Virus record (IMG/VR): IMGVR_UViG_3300027749_003452
Location: 1 to 21,590 of that record
Reading direction: 5' to 3' (one strand)
DNA length: 21,590 nt
From: a virus
Positions within the stretch are counted from its first letter, which is position 1. Each line of letters starts with the position of its first letter. Of the stretch, positions 10,106-21,550 are shown one piece after another. The translations under genes were made by a program, and so were the position numbers. The notes under the pieces are model-generated. The model searched no databases, was not told the origin of the DNA, and saw only the letters and a list, made by a program, of their open reading frames with translations.

Positions 10106-10495
10106 TTATCTACGCATCCTGGCGCTGTCTTGTGCTTCTTGCTGGCTGAACACAGGTTGCAAACAACTCTTGTGCATGACAGCAATACCAATGACCTCGG
10201 TGCCGGTATACACTTTGTGTACTGTGGAAGTGGATCCACCAGCAGTCACATGACTGGGTATGTTGTGTGTTGTATTACGTCCCGGAGGTGTGGTCAACTT
10301 GTATGTGAGTGCAGGTGCCTTGAGCGCACGACTACGACGCTTTTCATCAGCATCCACTTCCCACTTTTTTTGCAGTTCCTTCCATGAGGCATCTAGCTCA
10401 CGGGCTTTTTTTGCTTCTTCAGCATTACGGAATTTTACCTTGCCACGTTTTTTACCGTTAAGGCTAAGGCTGGGATGGTGCAAGTGCATACTCAT
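10106..10495 (-). CDS. conserved phage protein of unknown function (129 aa), operon leader gene
   Basis: A basic N-terminal half (residues 10-60: KKRGKVKFRNAEEAKKAREL, then WKELQKKWEVDADEKRR) is probably a charged helix. The C-terminal half reads STVHKVYTGTEVIGIAVMHK, then SCLQPVFSQQEAQDSARMRR. The block VYTG..VIGIA.MHKS...PVFS...A.....MRR is one I recognise as strongly conserved among unrelated phages, always without a known function. GGAG lies 7 nt before the ATG. This is the first gene after the strong promoter at 10520-10548. Confidence 0.8.
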   Translation of the reverse strand: MSMHLHHPSLSLNGKKRGKVKFRNAEEAKKARELDASWKELQKKWEVDADEKRRSRALKAPALTYKLTTPPGRNTTHNIPSHVTAGGSTSTVHKVYTGTEVIGIAVMHKSCLQPVFSQQEAQDSARMRR

Positions 10496-10519: not shown

Positions 10520-10548
10520 ATTATAGCAGATCCCGAATTATTGGTCAA
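10520..10548 (-). promoter_or_regulatory. strong sigma70-type promoter with extended -10, for the nine-gene redox operon
   Basis: Minus strand: TTGACC (10543-10548), a 17-nt spacer ending in TGC, and a perfect TATAAT (10520-10525). The spacer AATAATTCGGGATCTGC closely resembles those of the promoters at 18828-18856 and 19212-19240. The downstream genes to 7099 have almost no gaps and no other promoter was seen. Confidence 0.9.
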
Positions 10549-12272: not shown

Positions 12273-12585
12273 ACAAATGTCGTTTTTGTACCACGGTGCC
12301 CCAATGTTCAGCATCAGGCAATGCTGGTTTCTTTTTGGTTATCACTTTCCACAATCTAGAAAAATCAACATTAATTTGGATAAAATCACGCTGATCTTCC
12401 GGTACATCATCTTCTGTATAAATGGCATTCACCGGGCATTCAGGAATACACACTGCACAATCGATACATTCGTCGGGATTGATTACAAGAAAATTTGGAC
12501 CTTCATAAAAGCAATCCACTGGGCAAACATCTACACAATCAGTATGCTTACACTTTATACAAGATTCAGTTACAACATGGGTCAT
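12250..12585 (-). CDS. fdxA: 7Fe ferredoxin, FdxA family (111 aa)
   Basis: The cysteine pattern matches the Azotobacter-type 7Fe ferredoxin shifted by one residue. Cys9, Cys17 and Cys50 fit the [3Fe-4S] ligands, and Cys21, Cys40, Cys43 and Cys46 the [4Fe-4S] ligands. Cys12 and Cys25 are the conserved non-ligand cysteines. Signatures [19 protein letters not shown] and [17 protein letters not shown] are intact, and the C-terminal helical extension typical of FdxA (about 60-111) is present, so it is full length. These proteins carry electrons at low potential in the cytoplasm. The start overlaps the NAD synthetase stop as ATGA, making it the last gene of that operon. A likely partner in this phage is the radical SAM protein (inference). 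Confidence 0.95.
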
Positions 12586-13367
12586 GGTAATTTACACACC
12601 GGAATTGGTTCCATCTTGTGTAAATTTTTTGCACGAATTGCTCGATACTTATTAAGATTTGTTTTTTCGGTACTGGTTACAGACTGGTCTCCGGACTCGT
12701 CCAACCACATGGTTCGTTCCAAGTCAGGATAACTCATACCCAGTTGTCCTTCATCTGTGCGGTCGTCATCCCAGAGTCCGTCAGTGGGTTCGGCGTCAAT
12801 GATTTCCTGGGGCAGGCCAAACTCTCTGCCCATGTCCCATACCGTAGTTTTCATGCAGTCCCCAATGGGACTGATATCCACCCCACCGTCGCCGTACTTG
12901 GTAAAGAATCCTACCCCAAAGTCTTCTACCCTGTTGCCAGTGCCCACCACAATCCCCGAGTGGCTTTGGGCAAGTTGGTACAAGGTCATCATGCGTAATC
13001 TAGCACGGCTGTTGGCAAACGCCAGTTGTTCCTGCGGATTGGGCTCTTGCTCAGGTGCGCAGAAGGGTTGTACTTTCTTTTCAAATGCTGTGAACACCGG
13101 GGTCAAATCCATGCTGATGTGTGTGACGTTTTTGTAGCGTTCCTGCAACCAAGTGGCTTGCATTGTGCTACGATTGTCTAATTTTTTGTTCTGGCGTATG
13201 GGCATTTGTACCACAATAGTTGGGAGTCCTGTTTCTGCACACAGTGCGGATACCACGCTGGAATCGATTCCACCTGAAATTCCCACCACCAAAGTGTCAA
13301 TTTTGGCACTCCGGGCATAACCTCGGATCCACTTTGTGATATGTTTAATACGTTGTTTTGAGTTCAT
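12582..13367 (-). CDS. nadE: NH3-dependent NAD+ synthetase (261 aa)
   Basis: N-type ATP pyrophosphatase fold: the PP-loop SGGIDSS is at residues 31-37. NSRARLRM (119-126), [21 protein letters not shown] (142-162, listed as GTGN then [10 protein letters not shown]), DISP (164-167) and [14 protein letters not shown] (200-213) are the NaAD- and ATP-binding blocks. [11 protein letters not shown] closes the protein as in host enzymes. There is no glutaminase domain, so ammonia is the expected nitrogen source. It adenylates and amidates nicotinic acid adenine dinucleotide to NAD+. Length is normal for the short bacterial form. It is flanked by ATGA overlaps with the 176-aa gene and the ferredoxin gene, all in one operon. 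A role in refilling NAD during infection or after NADase-type defence is inference. Confidence 0.93.
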
Positions 13368-14424: not shown

Positions 14425-16479
14425 ATGAGTTTAGATCAAAAAAAGCATATTCCTATTTTAACAGGAAAAGAACACTCCACACACCCGTCTGGACAAACAG
14501 CTAGTTTACCTGAATTAGATAAACTGTTTAATGATCCCACTCAACCCGAATCTAAAGATGTTATTGCTGCCAGAGGATTATTAAAGTATGCCAAATCAAG
14601 GCCGCAGGCCAATTTGTCCGACGTTGTAATTACTCACGAGATCACAAGATCCACTCACATTGCACTGGTCATGATGCCAAAATGGGCAATATACTTTGCT
14701 CCATATAATATTGCTCGGTTATCGGCAGTGACCAAGGCAGCCGGATACAAAACGTCGGTGCGAGACTACAACATTGAAACTTGGCATCGATTAAAAGGTG
14801 TTTTGGATGAGGATCCGTACAACGGGCACGGGTCAAAAGATTATTTGTGGTTGAATGAAATGTATGAGAACAAACTCAAACCATATGTAACCCCATTATT
14901 AGAAGAGTATTTAGAAGAGTTAGTGAGTCTTAACCCAGATGTTGTTGGATTTAGTTTGTACTATACAAATGTGATACCTACTTTTTGGATGGCAGAACAA
15001 CTCAAACAAAGATTGCCCAATGTCAAGATTATTGGTGGCGGAAGTCATCTCCAATGGCATGATGAAAACAGTGGTGGGCGCTATCCCAATTTTGATCATG
15101 TGATCAAAGGTGAAGCCGAAGAACTGCTTTTAGAAATGCTAGACAAAATAGATACCGGAAACCCACTCACACAGTATCAGTATAATTCAGATTTTGGTCG
15201 CCGTATTAACTTAGATACCTTGCCATTTCCTGATTACAGCGACATGGATGTAAAGCGTTATTTGGTACCTAACGCTATCAGTTCTGAGATCAGTAGAGGG
15301 TGTGTTGCCAAGTGTGCATTTTGTGCCGAGACATTATTTTGGAAATATCGCGGTCGGCAGGCTCCGAGAATTTTAGAAGAAGTTGAACAACAATATCATA
15401 GATACGGCACCAATATGTTTTGGTTCATTGACAGTCTTGTTAATGGTAATCCTGAGGAACTTCGGGACTTTGCTGTGGGTGTGGTTGAACGTGGTCTTGA
15501 AATCAACTGGAAAGGATATGCCCGATGTGATGATCGCATGGACTATGCTTACTTAAAAGATCTCAAGGTCAGCGGATGTGTTGATCTTAATTTTGGTATT
15601 GAATCTGGTAGTCAATCAGTTCTTGACGCTATGAAAAAGAATACCAAAGTGCATGTGGTGGAAAGAAATCTTCAAGATTGTAAAAAATTAAACATAAGTT
15701 GTTCTACCAATTGGATGCTGGGATTCCCTGGAGAAGCATCCAATGATTTTGCCAAGACTATGACACTGGCCTGGCGCCTCCAGTCCTGTATAGCAACCAT
15801 GTCACGACAGGCCATGAATTTGGGACCAAGTCGAGTTGCCAATGATCCAGAAAAATACAATGTACACCCTAAACATTTCTTGGGAGTATGGGCCACAAAC
15901 GATCATAGTAATACCAAACTTCATCGATTGATACGTGTAAAGTCGTTTAATATATTAACCGAACAAATGCCAGTTTACAGTAAAATTGACGGTGACAAAT
16001 ATTCTCGCAACAATCTAAATGAATTTTCTTTACATTTAAATAACTCATTTAATTTTGACGTTACATTTGAAAATCAAATTACAAGAAAAGAACTATCCAA
16101 TTATCTTGATGTACCTTATGAAGATTTTGATTACGAAATAATCAAAGATCCCGGTCTTGACTCGGTATTCAAACGCACAGTTGTAAATGAAATATGGCCG
16201 TTATTTAGAACATTATGGCGCAGTAGAAAAAAATCAGCAATGAAGATGTTTGTTAAGTTTGATCCAAGTTGGGATTATAACAATCACGGCAGCGCATTAG
16301 GTGGTGATAATTTTACGGCTATTTATAATTTTGAAATTGACAACAACCAACAATGGCAAGCCAGTTGCCGGTTGCAATTTAATGCACCCGAAAATCCATA
16401 TCTTCCCTGGGGAATAGATTCTGATACATTAGACTTTGAGCTTGAGCTTGACTGGACCGGTAGCGGGCAATGGGATTAA
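14425..16479 (+). CDS. cobalamin-binding-type radical SAM protein (684 aa)
   Basis: Residues about 75-245 look like a B12-binding Rossmann-type domain: PYNIARLSAVTKAAGYKTSV (93-112), PDVVGFSLYYTN (171-182), VKIIGGGSHLQW (200-211) and DHVIKGEAEELLLEML (224-239). The radical SAM core starts at about 285 with SRGCVAKCAFCAE, whose Cys293, Cys297 and Cys300 should ligate the [4Fe-4S] cluster. It continues with FIDSLVNG, NWKGYARCD, GIESGSQSVLDAMKKN and NWMLGFPGE. The C-terminal 200 residues (about 480-684) are of no recognised family and end in an acidic beta-rich stretch (DTLDFELELDWTGSGQWD). Class B radical SAM enzymes include methylases and cyclases. It is the only large plus-strand gene, monocistronic, and ends by stop overlap with a convergent gene. 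Substrate unknown. Confidence 0.88.
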   Translation: MSLDQKKHIPILTGKEHSTHPSGQTASLPELDKLFNDPTQPESKDVIAARGLLKYAKSRPQANLSDVVITHEITRSTHIALVMMPKWAIYFAPYNIARLSAVTKAAGYKTSVRDYNIETWHRLKGVLDEDPYNGHGSKDYLWLNEMYENKLKPYVTPLLEEYLEELVSLNPDVVGFSLYYTNVIPTFWMAEQLKQRLPNVKIIGGGSHLQWHDENSGGRYPNFDHVIKGEAEELLLEMLDKIDTGNPLTQYQYNSDFGRRINLDTLPFPDYSDMDVKRYLVPNAISSEISRGCVAKCAFCAETLFWKYRGRQAPRILEEVEQQYHRYGTNMFWFIDSLVNGNPEELRDFAVGVVERGLEINWKGYARCDDRMDYAYLKDLKVSGCVDLNFGIESGSQSVLDAMKKNTKVHVVERNLQDCKKLNISCSTNWMLGFPGEASNDFAKTMTLAWRLQSCIATMSRQAMNLGPSRVANDPEKYNVHPKHFLGVWATNDHSNTKLHRLIRVKSFNILTEQMPVYSKIDGDKYSRNNLNEFSLHLNNSFNFDVTFENQITRKELSNYLDVPYEDFDYEIIKDPGLDSVFKRTVVNEIWPLFRTLWRSRKKSAMKMFVKFDPSWDYNNHGSALGGDNFTAIYNFEIDNNQQWQASCRLQFNAPENPYLPWGIDSDTLDFELELDWTGSGQWD

Positions 16480-17045: not shown

Positions 17046-17387
17046 TTAAGCCTTCACAGCAGATTTGGCAGTTGCTTTTGACGCAGAGGCTTTGACACCT
17101 TTACCTGCGACTTTGACTTCGCCTTTCTTGACGAGCTTGGTCTTCTCTGACAGTTTGTTGGCTACAGCATAGCCAGCGTCGCCGTCAGTAATGCCCTGTT
17201 CAGTTAAGAACTGAAGAGCTTCCAACTTGGTCATTGCACTGGGCAATTCAACCAAGTTGATGTTAGTGCATCCAGACTTGTTAAGGATCTTGATGCGGGC
17301 TACCAAGTCGTTCGCAAAGCGAGCCTTGGTAGTACCATCGGAATTTGTAGCGGTACCTGCTACTGTAAAGAGTTTGTCTGCTGACAT
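17046..17387 (-). CDS. small phage protein with basic Ala/Lys-rich tail (113 aa)
   Basis: The start at 17387 has AAAGG 7 nt upstream; a TTG 15 nt earlier would add five residues. Residues 1-72 are a small folded part (MSADKLFTVAGTATNSDGTT, then KARFANDLVARIKILNKSGC and LPSAMTKLEALQFLTEQGI). Residues 73-113 become Lys/Ala/Val-rich (KLSEKTKLVKKGEVKVAGKG, then VKASASKATAKSAVKA), a histone-like disordered tail that could contact nucleic acid. The first part is one I associate with a conserved protein of large aquatic phages. It is a single-gene unit with its own promoter and terminator, probably highly expressed. Confidence 0.8.
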   Translation of the reverse strand: MSADKLFTVAGTATNSDGTTKARFANDLVARIKILNKSGCTNINLVELPSAMTKLEALQFLTEQGITDGDAGYAVANKLSEKTKLVKKGEVKVAGKGVKASASKATAKSAVKA

Positions 17388-17455: not shown

Positions 17456-17484
17456 ATTATAGCATAGAACGGTATTGGAGTCAA
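17456..17484 (-). promoter_or_regulatory. strong sigma70-type promoter with extended -10, for the basic-tailed protein
   Basis: Minus strand TTGACT (17479-17484), 17-nt spacer ending TGC, TATAAT (17456-17461). The transcript would have a leader of about 60 nt, unlike the very short leaders elsewhere in the window. Confidence 0.88.
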
Positions 17485-17651: not shown

Positions 17652-17792
17652 TCAATTCTCCTTACGATTAAACACACGAACAAATTCTTGATGTAGCCCT
17701 GCAATGTCTTCCTGGACTCCGGTGCGGACTGTATCCACTACGGCACAGGCACTCATAACAGATACTGAAATTAATACAAACGCTGTTTTCAT
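17652..17792 (-). CDS. small lipoprotein candidate (46 aa)
   Basis: Missed by size-limited gene finding. The start ATG at 17792 overlaps the previous stop as ATGA, and the stop is at 17652-17654. The N-terminus MKTAFVLISVSVMSAC is a short Lys-led hydrophobic segment ending with Ser-Ala-Cys16, a lipobox-like site with Met in place of the usual Leu at -3. The mature part would be 31 residues (CAVVDTVRTGVQEDIAGLHQ and then EFVRVFNRKEN), small and helical. It could be an outer- or inner-membrane lipoprotein acting in superinfection exclusion or lysis (o-spanin-like). Function is inferred only from size and location. Confidence 0.7.
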   Translation of the reverse strand: MKTAFVLISVSVMSACAVVDTVRTGVQEDIAGLHQEFVRVFNRKEN

Positions 17793-18568
17793 TCTGTTAT
17801 GACCACTCGGTTCAGTTGGGTGGTACCATCACGCAGGCTTTTGACAGTACCGCGGATTTGATAACTGTCACCTGCTGGCAGTTCTCTACGATATGCAAAA
17901 AACACAGCCGAGTTGTTGGGAGTCACAGCAGTCACATACCAAGTGTTCCATTTCACACTGAAAAACGATTTGATCACTTCAATGTCAGTATCCACTTTTG
18001 TGCCAACTGTGCCCATGTAGTCGCCTGAGGTAGCACGTACACGCTCTTGTTCTGCAATGCGAGCCAGGCTTCGTTGGTGGCTGGCAGGTAAACTTGCGAC
18101 CACAGCCATTTCATAGCGATGTTTCGCAGTATCAAATTCTTCTGCCACAGCCAAACACTTGCTGATGGCCATGTCAAACTCACCAAGTTTGTTTTTTAAT
18201 GCACGGAATGTGATATCGTTTTGCAGGAATTTACGGCAATCTTGTGCTTGTGCAATATCTTCCACAGTAAGCACAGCCGGATTGGCCAGAATGTCTAACA
18301 TGATACTACGGTTGCTCCGGCGAGCCAGTTGTTTGCCAGTGGCCTCATGCTCGGGTAATTCTGCTTCATCATGTTTGACGTAAGAACCATTCATGCGTTG
18401 AGCCGCCACTGCCGCCGCCCACACATTGTCCACCGAGTGTTTGACGCTGATTTTCTTTGCACGTGGCTTCCAGGTGCGAGTGGCAGTTGTTTCATCTGAG
18501 TCGGATGCTGAATTCATGAGTTGGATGTCTTGCTTGGACATGTGGGTTGCATCTACAAAATCTGACAT
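17789..18568 (-). CDS. phage protein with possible C-terminal OB-type domain (259 aa)
   Basis: The start at 18568 is fixed by AAGGAG 7 nt upstream; an open frame continues upstream but would run through the adjacent gene. The N-terminal half is Lys/Arg-rich and Ala-rich (TRTWKPRAKKISVKHSVDNV). The middle (about 85-165) is helical. The C-terminal 65 residues (VIKSFFSVKWNTWYVTAVTP, then NNSAVFFAYRRELPAGDSYQ and IRGTVKSLRDGTTQLNRVVI) form a predicted beta-barrel with the Gly-Thr-Val-K..rDG.tQLN.V pattern I associate with OB-like domains in phage proteins. A nucleic-acid-binding role is likely but not shown. It is the first gene of a unit with the lipoprotein and tiny membrane protein. Confidence 0.75.
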   Translation of the reverse strand: MSDFVDATHMSKQDIQLMNSASDSDETTATRTWKPRAKKISVKHSVDNVWAAAVAAQRMNGSYVKHDEAELPEHEATGKQLARRSNRSIMLDILANPAVLTVEDIAQAQDCRKFLQNDITFRALKNKLGEFDMAISKCLAVAEEFDTAKHRYEMAVVASLPASHQRSLARIAEQERVRATSGDYMGTVGTKVDTDIEVIKSFFSVKWNTWYVTAVTPNNSAVFFAYRRELPAGDSYQIRGTVKSLRDGTTQLNRVVITE

Positions 18569-18578
18569 TGTGGGCTCC

Positions 18579-18797
18579 TTAGAAATAAAAGGCGGTTTTA
18601 AAATCCAAGCGACTGTAAACAATCTCTCGCACTTCGGTATCCATTGCTTCAGCAAAGTCTTCACGCTTGGCAAGGTTTTCCAGTTCCTTGTAAACTTGTG
18701 GCCAATCCATTTTGAGAATTTTAGCACTACGAACGATTGCGTCAACTGCATCGTTACCAAAGTCACTGAACATTCCAAAATCTTTTGTTGCAATCAT
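18579..18797 (-). CDS. small phage protein of unknown function (72 aa)
   Basis: Start at 18797 has AAGGAG 7 nt upstream; the ATG at 18827 lies before the predicted transcription start and is therefore rejected. The protein is helical with the pattern MFSDFGNDAVDAIVRSAKIL, then MDWPQVYKELENLAKREDFAEAM, split here as MDWPQVYKELENLA and KREDFAEAM. I remember this from small conserved proteins of large phages. No motif gives a function. The leader is about 25 nt. Confidence 0.75.
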   Translation of the reverse strand: MIATKDFGMFSDFGNDAVDAIVRSAKILKMDWPQVYKELENLAKREDFAEAMDTEVREIVYSRLDFKTAFYF

Positions 18798-18827
18798 TTG
18801 CGGCTCCTTGTTTGTGTTCGTGTCCAT

Positions 18828-18856
18828 ATTATAGCATTTCGGGAATTATTGGTCAA
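18828..18856 (-). promoter_or_regulatory. strong sigma70-type promoter with extended -10
   Basis: Minus strand TTGACC (18851-18856), 17-nt spacer AATAATTCCCGAAATGC, TATAAT (18828-18833). The TGA stop of the upstream 109-aa gene (18853-18855) lies within the -35 box. Confidence 0.9.
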
Positions 18857-19182
18857 CCTCTTGCAATACGATATGTAATGCCTTGATCGGTTAGTACTTT
18901 AGTAATACCACCCGACTTTTCATAATCTTGCTCGAGCAATTTTAATATCTTGCTGTCTTTAACACGAGCCTGATCCAATTTGATAGTGACAAATTTTTGG
19001 CGATAAGTGATAAAAATGTTTTTGGCACTGTACACCATCTCAAGTCCCAACTTGATACGTTCGGCACGAATCTTTTGAGCTTCAGTGTAGAGTGTGCTTG
19101 CCGCATAACTTTTAATTGCGGCATCTCTTGCGGCTATCCATTTAAACGGTGCTTCTTTTGTGTCGAGTTCGAATGCTTTCAT
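18853..19182 (-). CDS. phage protein of unknown function (109 aa)
   Basis: Start supported by GAGG 6 nt before the ATG. The protein is basic and helical in the first half (IAARDAAIKSYAASTLYTEA, then QKIRAERIKLGLEMVYSAKN), then has IFITYRQKFVTIKLDQARVK and a short tail ending ITYRIARG. Not recognised. Its last codons and stop overlap the next promoter's -35, so gene and promoter form a packed unit. Confidence 0.7.
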   Translation of the reverse strand: MKAFELDTKEAPFKWIAARDAAIKSYAASTLYTEAQKIRAERIKLGLEMVYSAKNIFITYRQKFVTIKLDQARVKDSKILKLLEQDYEKSGGITKVLTDQGITYRIARG

Positions 19183-19211
19183 TTGGGCCTCTGTTTGCTG
19201 TTTATGTCCTT

Positions 19212-19240
19212 ATTATAGCATTTCGGGATTATTTGGTCAA
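19212..19240 (-). promoter_or_regulatory. strong sigma70-type promoter with extended -10 inside an inverted repeat
   Basis: Minus strand TTGACC (19235-19240), 17-nt spacer AAATAATCCCGAAATGC, TATAAT (19212-19217). An 11-bp inverted repeat (19216-19226 with 19241-19251, TAGCATTTCGG/CCGAAATGCTA) brackets the -35 and touches the -10. Confidence 0.9.
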
Positions 19241-19250
19241 CCGAAATGCT

Positions 19251-19275
19251 AGTACTACAAAAGTACTACTTTTGT
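19251..19275. repeat. hairpin-bearing 25-bp repeat, copy A
   Basis: AGTACTACAAAAGTACTACT followed by TTTGT. It matches 19851-19875 at 23 of 25 positions. Confidence 0.85.
19257..19275 (-). terminator. small hairpin across the stop codon of the 174-aa gene
   Basis: ACAAAAG-TACTA-CTTTTGT gives a perfect 7-bp stem with a 5-nt loop that contains the TAG stop. It is A+T-rich and lacks a long U-run, so termination may be weak. The same element recurs at 19858-19874. Confidence 0.55.
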
Positions 19276-19790
19276 GCTGCCAAATTCTGCTGGATATCTT
19301 CTGTTGCCAGGGCATCTGCAAGGAACTCCAAGTCATCCGTGCCCTGCTTGACATACCACACACCGTCTTTCATAAGGTATGCATACTCTGCGCCACAATT
19401 GTCGTAGAACTCTAGAAAGTCGTCCCAACTAGTCAGGGTTTTAAAATCACATCCGGTCTCGCCGCGATCACGATCGTAAAAAGTACACCAACCTGCTTCT
19501 TTGGCGGCTTCATATGCCGCTTCGGTTTCGGCTTTGATTTGGTTTTGTTCTTCTTCAGTCAATGCCTTGAACTCTTCGTCCTCAGTCACAAACGGACTGA
19601 ACGTATGCTTACTGCCGATTGTGGTGCCAAGGCTACTCAAGTCGCCCAGTGTCACAAGATGGTTGGCTTTGCTTGAGTCGTAATGGTCCAACAAAATACG
19701 TCCATTGTGATCTAGATAACCGTCCCAATGACAATATACTGCTTTAGCATTACCACCATGATACACACCAATCACACTTCTTGTACCCAT
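19266..19790 (-). CDS. conserved phage protein of unknown function (174 aa)
   Basis: Begins MGTRSVIGVYHGGNAKAVYC followed by HWDGYLDHNGRILLDHY. This opening (MGTRS.I.V...G..K.VYCHWDGYL..NG..L) is one I know from a protein found in many phages and some bacteria, with no established role. The middle is acidic (TEDEEFKALTEEEQNQIKAE), and the C-terminal part has WCTFYDRDRGETGCDF and GAEYAYLMKDGVWYV. Cys-His-Trp near residues 20-22 and FYDRDRGE could be functional. AGGAG lies 7 nt before the ATG. Confidence 0.8.
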   Translation of the reverse strand: MGTRSVIGVYHGGNAKAVYCHWDGYLDHNGRILLDHYDSSKANHLVTLGDLSSLGTTIGSKHTFSPFVTEDEEFKALTEEEQNQIKAETEAAYEAAKEAGWCTFYDRDRGETGCDFKTLTSWDDFLEFYDNCGAEYAYLMKDGVWYVKQGTDDLEFLADALATEDIQQNLAAQK

Positions 19791-19822
19791 TTTTGACTCC
19801 TGTTTTGTTACTGTATGTCCAT

Positions 19823-19851
19823 ATTATAGCATTTTAGGAATATTCGGTCAA
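19823..19851 (-). promoter_or_regulatory. strong sigma70-type promoter with extended -10
   Basis: Minus strand TTGACC (19846-19851), 17-nt spacer GAATATTCCTAAAATGC, TATAAT (19823-19828). Followed by a short leader whose GGACATA beginning is shared with the promoter at 19212-19240. Confidence 0.9.
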
Positions 19852-19875
19852 GTACTACAAAAGTATTACTTTTGG
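19851..19875. repeat. hairpin-bearing 25-bp repeat, copy B
   Basis: AGTACTACAAAAGTATTACT followed by TTTGG. Same element as 19251-19275, exactly 600 bp away, joined to another early promoter. Confidence 0.85.
19858..19874 (-). terminator. small hairpin across the stop codon of the 63-aa gene
   Basis: CAAAAG-TATTA-CTTTTG forms a 6-bp stem with a 5-nt loop that contains the TAA stop of the 63-aa gene. No long U-run follows. Confidence 0.5.
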
Positions 19876-20057
19876 TCCATGAGTTTAATAAAGTTGGAAA
19901 ATACAGCCAGCATTTCTTCCGGGTTTTGTTGCTTGACACAGGCGGCCACCGTGCCTTGCTGTCGGAATTTTTCTGCTGATTTTTCACAGTCAGGAAGACT
20001 GTTAAATTGTCCCACGCTCTGTACAGAGGTGCTCATGACCAAAATTATGTTCCACAT
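19866..20057 (-). CDS. small protein with a hydrophobic N-terminus and two cysteines (63 aa)
   Basis: Start supported by AGGAG 7 nt before the ATG. The N-terminus MWNIILVMSTSVQSVGQF is hydrophobic and could be a short signal, but lacks a basic n-region. Cys24 (LPDCEKSAEKF) and Cys40 (GTVAACVKQQ) could pair in an oxidising compartment. The overall pattern (hydrophobic start, F.sL..C......Q..G..A.CV.Q) is one I have seen in small phage proteins. Role unknown. Confidence 0.65.
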   Translation of the reverse strand: MWNIILVMSTSVQSVGQFNSLPDCEKSAEKFRQQGTVAACVKQQNPEEMLAVFSNFIKLMDQK

Positions 20058-20083
20058 TGGAGTTCTCCTATTTCAATACTTGT

Positions 20084-20112
20084 ATTATATAGGAAATTGT
20101 GATTTTGGTCAA
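20084..20112 (-). promoter_or_regulatory. sigma70-type promoter for the 63-aa gene
   Basis: Minus strand TTGACC (20107-20112), 17-nt spacer, TATAAT (20084-20089). The -35 sits at the centre of TTTTGGT-CA-ACCAAAA (20103-20118), a 7-bp inverted repeat. Confidence 0.85.
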
Positions 20113-20130
20113 CCAAAAGGCCGCAAACAA

Positions 20131-20186
20131 AAGTACTACCCATTCTGCCACTGTAAACTTAGTACGATAGTAGTAGAGTAGTACTT
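20131..20186. repeat. 9-bp inverted repeat in the gap after the 103-aa gene
   Basis: AAGTACTAC (20131-20139) and GTAGTACTT (20178-20186) are perfect complements. The same AGTACTAC word is part of the hairpin repeats at 19251 and 19851. The 98-nt gap between 20113 and 20210 holds no gene, and a 5-bp hairpin AACCT-CACA-AGGTT lies near its right end on the minus strand. Confidence 0.55.
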
Positions 20187-20210
20187 GTTGTTTAAACCTT
20201 GTGAGGTTCA

Positions 20211-20522
20211 TTATCTTATTTGTGTTACTTTTAGGTGGCGTTCTGCAACAAGCTCTTGCACAAATTCCAGTAACTGCTCAGGAGTCCACTTGTTATCTAA
20301 CCACTCAGTTTCCCATTCATCGATTTTCCATAGCATGTCTCTATTCTGAATTTTGATGATATTTTCTAGTCGCTTGACATGGGTACTAGTACCTTTAAAC
20401 AAATATGAAAAACGTGCTATGCCTCCCCAGGCTCCAGTATAGTCTTTTTCTCTACGTTCATAGTGCCCAGTAATACCGAATCCAGTTCGGTATGGACCTT
20501 TAAGGATGTAGAAATAACTCAT
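20211..20522 (-). CDS. GIY-YIG-like small phage protein, probably inactive as a nuclease (103 aa)
   Basis: The opening MSYFYILKGPYRTGFGITGH, then YERREKDYTGAWGGI, matches a small protein of T4-like phages annotated as GIY-YIG-like. YIL is in the GIY position and GFGIT in the YIG position, with Arg23/24 following and Glu53 in KRLENIIK where the metal-binding Glu is expected. The C-terminal part (IDEWETEWLDNKWTPEQLLE, then FVQELVAERHLK) is family-specific. It is much shorter than homing enzymes and has no DNA-recognition unit, so it may bind DNA or cut it with little specificity. ATGA overlap with the ParB-like gene. Confidence 0.7.
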   Translation of the reverse strand: MSYFYILKGPYRTGFGITGHYERREKDYTGAWGGIARFSYLFKGTSTHVKRLENIIKIQNRDMLWKIDEWETEWLDNKWTPEQLLEFVQELVAERHLKVTQIR

Positions 20523-21550
20523 GCTGTTTCAACTTCTTCGTACAAGGCCTTAATGTCATCATCAACAAAATCAAGGATCTTTTCAAAACGGTCCAACAAG
20601 GGTTTTGGTATACGCTGGGTACCGCCAAGTCGTTGATATAACAATACTAAGACCGCCGCAATGGCCTCATCTTGCCAACTGACCTCGTAGCCGTATGTAT
20701 GGATCCCCCACTTGACATGAGCACTATGCACCGCTTCGTGGAACTGTGCAAGGCCAGCAAAATATCCCTGTAGGATACCCGCTAGTTCACTCAAGAACTT
20801 GTCTGTGATCTTAATTTTTGCGGCGCTGAATGCCTTAGATAAATCTTCCATCATAAACCACAGCGAACCATTGATCTCGTCGTAGTGGAAATAGTCGTTG
20901 TGAAACTTGCAAGCCATTTTTAAAATATCGTTATCAAGACTTAGTGCCTGCATATGAGTAAATGTTCCGGGCAATCCCACAAAATTACTTTCTTTGTCTA
21001 CTGGATAGCAGTCGTATGTCTCACAGATTACCTGCCTGCGCAAGGCTTCTTGATCGTCATCATCTTGACTACCATCAATCCTGGCACTCATCACTTTGGT
21101 TCTGTGTTCGTACCACGCACTAATTTTCTTTTTACCCTTGCCGTTAATAAGTGCAAATGCTTTGCGAGCAAATGATTTGCTGGTTGTTTCAATATACAAA
21201 ACTGGCATTTCAACTTCACGCCAATCAGTCTCGCCGACAAACAACCCAGCATCAATCATTGCCGCAATTAATGCGGCAGTATGCTGTGCATCTACAGCAT
21301 GGTATTCTTCATTTCCGGGAATCTTAACACAATAAATTACCTGCAGGTACATGGGATTAAAATTACCAATACCGGCAATGTTTGTGCAATGCTTGGCATC
21401 TAATGCTCGTTGAATGTCTTCGTCAATAAACAAAAATTTTAACTTGACCATTTTAATTAACGGACGTAGTTTGGGATCAATTATGAGTCCCTGCTTGCGA
21501 TATTCCGCAATTAATCGTTGCCAACCTTTGTAGGTTTGCAATTCTTTCAT
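20519..21550 (-). CDS. ParB/DGQHR-like phage protein (343 aa)
   Basis: Residues 64-120 (FNPMYLQVIYCVKIPGNEEY, HAVDAQHTAAL) resemble the ParB/sulfiredoxin-like fold in which an aspartate and a Gln-His (here D87-AQ-H90) follow a beta strand, as in DGQHR-type and DUF6551-type phage proteins. Residues 125-165 (KSFARKAFALINGKGKKKIS) fit the helical region after that core. The rest (about 170-343) is unassigned and helical. Possible roles are DNA binding, CTP or ATP binding, or nicking, as in other ParB-like phage proteins. A weak AGAAG precedes the ATG. The promoter is probably beyond the right edge; the last 40 bases hold nothing else recognisable. Confidence 0.65.
   Translation of the reverse strand: MKELQTYKGWQRLIAEYRKQGLIIDPKLRPLIKMVKLKFLFIDEDIQRALDAKHCTNIAGIGNFNPMYLQVIYCVKIPGNEEYHAVDAQHTAALIAAMIDAGLFVGETDWREVEMPVLYIETTSKSFARKAFALINGKGKKKISAWYEHRTKVMSARIDGSQDDDDQEALRRQVICETYDCYPVDKESNFVGLPGTFTHMQALSLDNDILKMACKFHNDYFHYDEINGSLWFMMEDLSKAFSAAKIKITDKFLSELAGILQGYFAGLAQFHEAVHSAHVKWGIHTYGYEVSWQDEAIAAVLVLLYQRLGGTQRIPKPLLDRFEKILDFVDDDIKALYEEVETA

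Follow-up and report, generated by a model that had tools for sequence, protein, structure and literature searches.

What do near-identical promoters in front of unrelated small genes signify in a phage genome: sites read by one polymerase or regulator, duplicated genes, or cassettes through which genes are gained and exchanged? The question is raised by the virus record IMGVR_UViG_3300027749_003452 of IMG/VR, which was analysed over its complete length of 21,590 bases (the window).

A repeated promoter in the window

The promoter TTGACC-N17-TATAAT occurs five times in the window, always on the minus strand; nearly all window genes are encoded on this strand (Table 1). As the chance expectation is 0.01 and five or more sites were reached in 0 of 100 shuffles, a chance origin was ruled out. 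A preliminary description of this DNA had placed such promoters at four consecutive gene boundaries and once more at 10520. The latter was confirmed and all four of the former are present, but the promoter at 20084 sits within the 3′ part of a 47-aa ORF instead of at a clean gene boundary. This ORF looks genuine: leaderless promoters of two other genomes (G025 and G001) are followed by genes for similar small proteins. The ORF spanning 18579-18827, by comparison, must start at 18797 (g82), because the ATG at 18827 is upstream of the predicted +1 of its promoter.

An unbiased repeat search united the copies starting at 10494, 18802, 19186 and 19797 in one 57-nt family with 61-79% identity to the reference copy, and a leader resembling ATGGACATAnACAGnAAAACAGGAG is common to the copies at 18828, 19212 and 19823. 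Homologues of the gene behind the sixth family member (17456) are preceded by a promoter in six other genomes. The 20084 site has a spacer and leader of another type than the remaining window copies. Its leader resembles the type found in contigs G020 and L312, and to judge from this resemblance the cassette looks as if it had been imported from another lineage.

The nearly identical hairpin repeat said to cross the upstream stop codon at two sites was recovered as a pair of stem-loop repeats with 96% identity over 24 nt, which include the stop codons TAG (19266-19268) and TAA (19866-19868). As RNA these hairpins are weak (-5 to -7 kcal/mol). The inverted repeat around the -35 of the 19212 promoter had escaped the preliminary description. 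A Pfam search gave no function for the window cassette genes.

Table 1. Promoters, genes and repeats of the window, in coordinates of the 21,590-base record
Feature	Position	Strand	Remarks
Promoter TTGACCAATAATTCGGGATCTGCTATAAT	10520-10548	minus	Upstream of gene 10106-10495
Promoter TTGACTCCAATACCGTTCTATGCTATAAT, sixth family member	17456-17484	minus	TTGACT-type; upstream of gene 17046-17387
Downstream anchor gene (fam A), part	17789-18499	minus	Delimits variable locus
g82, 72-aa gene	18579-18797	minus	Served by 18828 promoter
Promoter TTGACCAATAATTCCCGAAATGCTATAAT	18828-18856	minus	TGA stop codon of g109 inside its -35; us = -4
g109, 109-aa gene	18853-19182	minus	Has its own cassette
Promoter TTGACCAAATAATCCCGAAATGCTATAAT with leader aaggacataaacagcaaacagagg	19212-19240	minus	
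10-bp inverted repeat AGCATTTCGG / CCGAAATGCT	19217-19250	minus	Flanks -35 of 19212 promoter; -12.3 kcal/mol
24-nt stem-loop repeat	19251-19274	minus	Spans g174 stop codon; 8-bp perfect stem; fold -6.8 kcal/mol
g174, 174-aa gene	19266-19790	minus	
Promoter TTGACCGAATATTCCTAAAATGCTATAAT with leader atggacatacagtaacaaaacaggag	19823-19851	minus	
24-nt imperfect stem-loop repeat	19851-19874	minus	Spans g63 stop codon, abuts 19823 promoter; fold -5.2 kcal/mol
g63, 63-aa gene	19866-20057	minus	Served by 20084 promoter
47-aa ORF, small hydrophobic protein	20068-20211	minus	3′ part contains 20084 promoter
Promoter TTGACCAAAATCACAATTTCCTATATAAT with leader acaagtattgaaataggag	20084-20112	minus	Drives ORF 19866-20057
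Anchor genes g103 (20211-20522) and g343 (20519-21550)	20211-21550	minus	

The promoter is widespread in a lineage of jumbo phages

The 16-mer CCCGAAATGCTATAAT, which covers part of the spacer and the -10, was found in 116 IMG/VR viral stretches; 130 of its 135 matches stand directly behind a TTGAC -35, in a conserved block that begins with the GG ahead of the -35 and extends to about +10. Whole-record searches gave a maximum of 22 TTGACC sites, in a contig of 262 kb, and about 9-40 TTGAC-N-TATAAT sites per contig of 94-354 kb, mostly on one strand and fewer in shorter fragments, while the reversed pattern used as a control gave 0-3 per strand. These matches show that the pattern extends well beyond the four gene boundaries at which it was noticed. 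A host origin of the promoter was rejected, since a search through 257 Gb of bacterial and archaeal genomes did not return its 22-base form.

Megablast returned no nucleotide match between the window and named phages, and no structural gene was identified in its 21.6 kb, Gp23 and portal included. The window genes are syntenic with parts of two larger contigs, G003 (116-139 kb) and G001 (171-187 kb), and the block B-C-E-A-D is found again in G025 and G031 and partly in G020. T4-type Gp23 (E about 1e-98) is encoded in G020, G022, G024, G025 and G002, contigs that share genes of this block, and the T4 portal in four of these five, G025 being the exception. These two proteins place the lineage in the T4 superfamily. 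For the DNA polymerase of G003, the closest named relatives are those of the jumbo myoviruses Phosso, Atu_ph07, GAP32 and CBB (42-51% identity). The likeness to Rak2, GAP32, CBB, Agrobacterium phage Atu_ph07 and Sinorhizobium phage Phosso is one of genome family (DNA polymerase, T4-type Gp23 and portal).

Anatomy of the cassettes

Among 148 cassettes from nine genomes, there are 63 in which the upstream gene ends within the promoter; its stop codon is the TGA of TTGA in 38, and in 16 it ends at promoter positions 11-12, typically as the TAA of an AATAAT after the -35. Perfect stems of at least 7 bp are present just upstream of the -35 in 14% of cassettes, compared with 1% after shuffling and 3-5% at control junctions, and several of these are canonical terminators that end 1-8 nt before the -35. 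A GC-rich stem followed by a run of T is clear in L051, L086, G020, L187 and L308 and weak in the window. Only 23% of the cassettes have a perfect stem-loop of at least 6 bp and most show none.

The ATG favours two distances from TATAAT: exactly 6 nt, at the predicted +1, in 28 of the 148 cassettes, and 21-34 nt in most of the others, which usually have a Shine-Dalgarno sequence. By this spacing, about a fifth of the sites appear to drive leaderless genes. Some leaderless genes recur as families across several genomes, and one gave a weak GIY-YIG match just under the cut-off (E = 2e-4). In dozens of related contigs, a leaderless gene behind a cassette promoter encodes a small GIY-YIG-like protein (M..RKKRTDRTHIVY...YYIGIT), with examples in L006-L121 (e.g. 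L046, L070 and L109), at G001:97201 and G003:41665, and at L312:5107-5433. Another cassette family, TTGACGCAGCCCTTCGGGGCTGCTATAAT, was seen in L239 and L240, where the spacer is a hairpin between the -35 and -10 and the cassette precedes different genes.

The inverted repeat at 19212 belongs to a small class of sites in which two arms flank the -35. Such dyads could be operators for a dimeric phage repressor or activator, in which case the cassettes would constitute its regulon. Arms of at least 8 nt were found in 14 of 307 unique cassettes (mean 1.8 and maximum 6 after permutation), and the dyads are perfect over 8-10 nt with arms that differ between lineages (AGCAAAACGG/CCGTTTTGCT, CCCAAAG/CTTTGGG and the pair at 19212), which counts in favour of operators. 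Most cassettes of the same genomes nevertheless have no upstream arm, and 19212 is the only window copy with one; a genome-wide operator was rejected because the dyad is confined to a minority of cassettes, and we consider it very unlikely that an operator explains the repeated sites.

Cassette sequence follows the genome more than the gene

Each genome uses its own spacer and leader before unrelated genes, as in G024, where TTGACATTAAATGGnTTTGGGTATATAAT is followed by a leader like agagacttagacagttaa. Among clustered cassettes, spacer identity was 0.598 between unrelated genes within one genome, 0.496 between homologous genes of different genomes and 0.439 between unrelated genes of different genomes; spacer and leader are more alike among unrelated genes of one genome than among homologues between genomes. 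Proximity adds to this effect: spacer identity was 0.658 in pairs within 2 kb, against 0.602 when permuted among clustered cassettes (0 of 1000 permutations), and the leader showed the same, weaker trend (35 of 1000). The effect is confined to pairs less than 2 kb apart, as the distance correlation over all within-genome cassette pairs was not significant (Spearman -0.03).

These data bear on an account of the repetition in which only a promoter type is shared: a single host RNA polymerase, or a regulator specific to the lineage, would select for the same promoter and leader, with no special role for recombination. In most of the lineages examined, the -35, TGCTATAAT and the WAWT motif that comes after the -35 are conserved, as function would require, and lineage-specific spacers could be the sites of a lineage-specific protein. 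Against this, bases in the middle of the spacer and in the leader are homogenised within genomes, and more so between near neighbours, whereas a trans-acting factor predicts no distance effect; sigma70, to our knowledge, does not read these bases. The distance effect is predicted by local exchange or duplication and not by selection through a shared polymerase. As a shared promoter type also does not predict the swap junctions and lower adjacency described below, we regard it as an unlikely explanation, though one to be taken seriously.

Local tandem duplication of promoter and gene units, with the coding part then diverging fast, would likewise bring similar cassettes together, and near-identical copies are often within a few hundred bases of each other. 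The genes would then be unrecognisable paralogues that had never moved between phages. Genes that follow the most similar cassettes show no detectable likeness to one another, yet have homologues beside other neighbours in other phages, and a spacer or leader of 15-22 nt would not outlast a diverged gene by drift. Duplication of this kind is thus improbable as the source of the cassettes.

Genes are exchanged at the cassettes

Gene order was compared between related genomes on simple ORF calls, and the counts below share genomes and are not independent. With P for the promoter, the window locus reads B-C-47aa-P-g63-P-E-P-g109-P-g82-A, whereas the same locus reads B-C-P-E-P-A in G031/L307, B-C-H-P-I-P-E-P-g82-A in G025 and C-H-P-I-P-E-P-g82-A in G003. 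The unit of g109 and its promoter is absent from this locus in G003, G025 and G031, and g109 is found elsewhere in the genomes of G022 and G024, with a cassette of the local type. Similarly, g82 is present in G003 and G025, while g82 with its promoter was not found in G031, and the position of g63 is taken by other genes or nothing in the relatives. Homologues of g174 were found in seven other genomes, and in each of these, as in the window, the gene has a cassette to itself, in most cases of the local type, although it lies elsewhere in G001, G022 and G024. The anchor genes g103 and g343 are common to G025, G031, L307, L309 and L312, and the genes that come after them differ between contigs.

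Swap junctions were observed on both sides of the promoter. Between L063 and L072, the upstream gene and promoter are the same and the downstream gene differs, while between L055 and G001 the downstream gene is the same and the upstream gene differs. Such junctions, homologous to one side of the promoter and occupied by different genes to the other, support the shuffling by recombination that was proposed from the window alone. Raw swap counts by DNA identity gave a modest excess over controls, on one side only and in mixed classes, and a protein-level test of gene order with nearby controls was run after this moderate result. Conserved adjacency was 0.24 across cassettes; ordinary junctions nearby gave 0.41 (Mann-Whitney 0.0024) and distant ones 0.49 (6e-6), with p-values indicative only. 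Where the upstream neighbour of a cassette gene had changed, 110 of 211 homologue pairs kept a cassette. A comparison with relatives, one of the checks proposed in the preliminary description, did not refute the shuffling: beside new neighbours, genes still have a cassette of the local type.

Comparison with PeSLs and a model for the cassettes

PeSLs are composites of a promoter and a stem-loop between unrelated small genes, and genes are exchanged at these cassettes. They are reported to have been described, as promoter-early stem-loop cassettes of T4-type phages, by Arbiol et al. in 2010 and Comeau et al. in 2014. Our comparison with them rests on 40 kb of RB49 sequence and on secondary text. 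In this RB49 sequence, promoters at variable boundaries read like TTGACATGCAAAGGGAGTATGCTATAATACTCCC...AACAACGAGAGGATTATATTATG, and the upstream TGA stop is within TTGACA in two cases (boundaries 38160 and 38783). Both systems have a promoter, joined to a stem-loop in a minority of the present copies, that is repeated between unrelated small genes, a conserved leader with a Shine-Dalgarno sequence, an upstream stop codon inside TTGAC in some copies, and gene exchange at the cassettes. The cassettes described here contain a promoter that is sigma70-like by sequence in the spacers between small variable genes, near-identical copies of them precede unrelated genes within a genome, and gene indels and exchanges have their junctions at them.

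The PeSL-like layout suggested for the window holds for promoter, repetition and swaps; stem-loops are significantly enriched, with a perfect one of at least 6 bp at only about a quarter of the cassettes. In RB49 the stem flanks the -10, with its left arm in the spacer and its right arm after TATAAT. Where the present cassettes have a stem-loop, which most do not, it is either upstream of the -35 or placed around it. They also differ from PeSLs in that each lineage has a spacer and leader of its own and some sites are leaderless. The arrangement thus appears to be a PeSL-like system with its own anatomy. A passage in PMC3950731 (citing Sencilo et al. 2013) describes a PeSL-like motif before most genes of one genome arm in the haloarchaeal virus HGTV-1, consisting of a promoter-like box and an inverted repeat with proposed roles in regulation and shuffling. 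This likeness is one of description, and HGTV-1 is an unrelated virus with an archaeal TATA-type promoter.

Our preferred reading, to which we assign a probability of about 80%, is that the repeats are modular cassettes for gene regulation in a T4-superfamily jumbo phage and probable sites of homologous recombination for gene gain, loss and exchange. Each cassette would begin with a stem-loop or terminator, which is optional, followed by a strong sigma70-type promoter and then by a short Shine-Dalgarno leader or none. The promoter has the form GG-TTGACC-NNWAWT-N8-TGCTATAAT, and the gene before it often has its stop codon within the -35 and spacer. The cassette would close the reading frame ahead of it and probably also end the preceding transcript, and a small accessory gene with its cassette would form a self-contained transcription unit. 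Since the cassette ends the previous frame and brings its own promoter, an accessory gene could work wherever it lands.

Because near copies precede unrelated genes in one genome, the cassettes are probably short sites of homologous recombination, through which genes would be gained, lost and exchanged, and recurrent exchange would maintain the likeness among the copies within a genome. Recombination would be initiated within the cassettes, although they may merely mark permissive junctions. There is also a slight chance that the cassettes form a regulatory family that is itself mobile and owes its spread and homogenisation to the small GIY-YIG-like nuclease often encoded, without a leader, immediately after them. 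Junctions with no cassette, or with one of a different type, would be cut by the nuclease, and units of cassette and gene would then be copied into them.

On the preferred reading of recombining modular cassettes, the copies mark sites of gene gain and loss in uncultivated giant phages, as already described for T4 relatives. PeSL-like shuffling, known from a few cultivated T4 relatives, is thereby indicated in a large uncultivated lineage of jumbo phages as well. The hundreds of cassettes in many contigs allow a statistical test of the recombination model through lineage types, distance effects and junction swaps, and a frequent class of predicted leaderless mRNA tied to the same promoters comes to light.

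The promoters are probably read by the host RNA polymerase. By analogy with PeSLs, and given a separate set of genes preceded by TATAAATA, the cassette genes would be expressed early. The TATAAATA boxes, which are of T4 late type, lie at most 60 nt upstream of 2-6 genes per genome in G001, G002, G003, G020, G022, G024, G025 and G031; they precede 32 genes, about 18-fold more than the 1.8 or so expected from coding sequence, and none of these genes has a cassette.

Other genes of the window

Two further window genes were noted. The lone plus-strand gene among the minus-strand genes, at 14425-16479, encodes a B12-binding radical SAM protein, the closest G003 homologue of which (36%) is at 37-39 kb, far from the syntenic block. 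The gene at 12582-13367 encodes a phage NAD synthetase (PHROG 11189, E = 1e-79), and several related jumbo contigs also have one.
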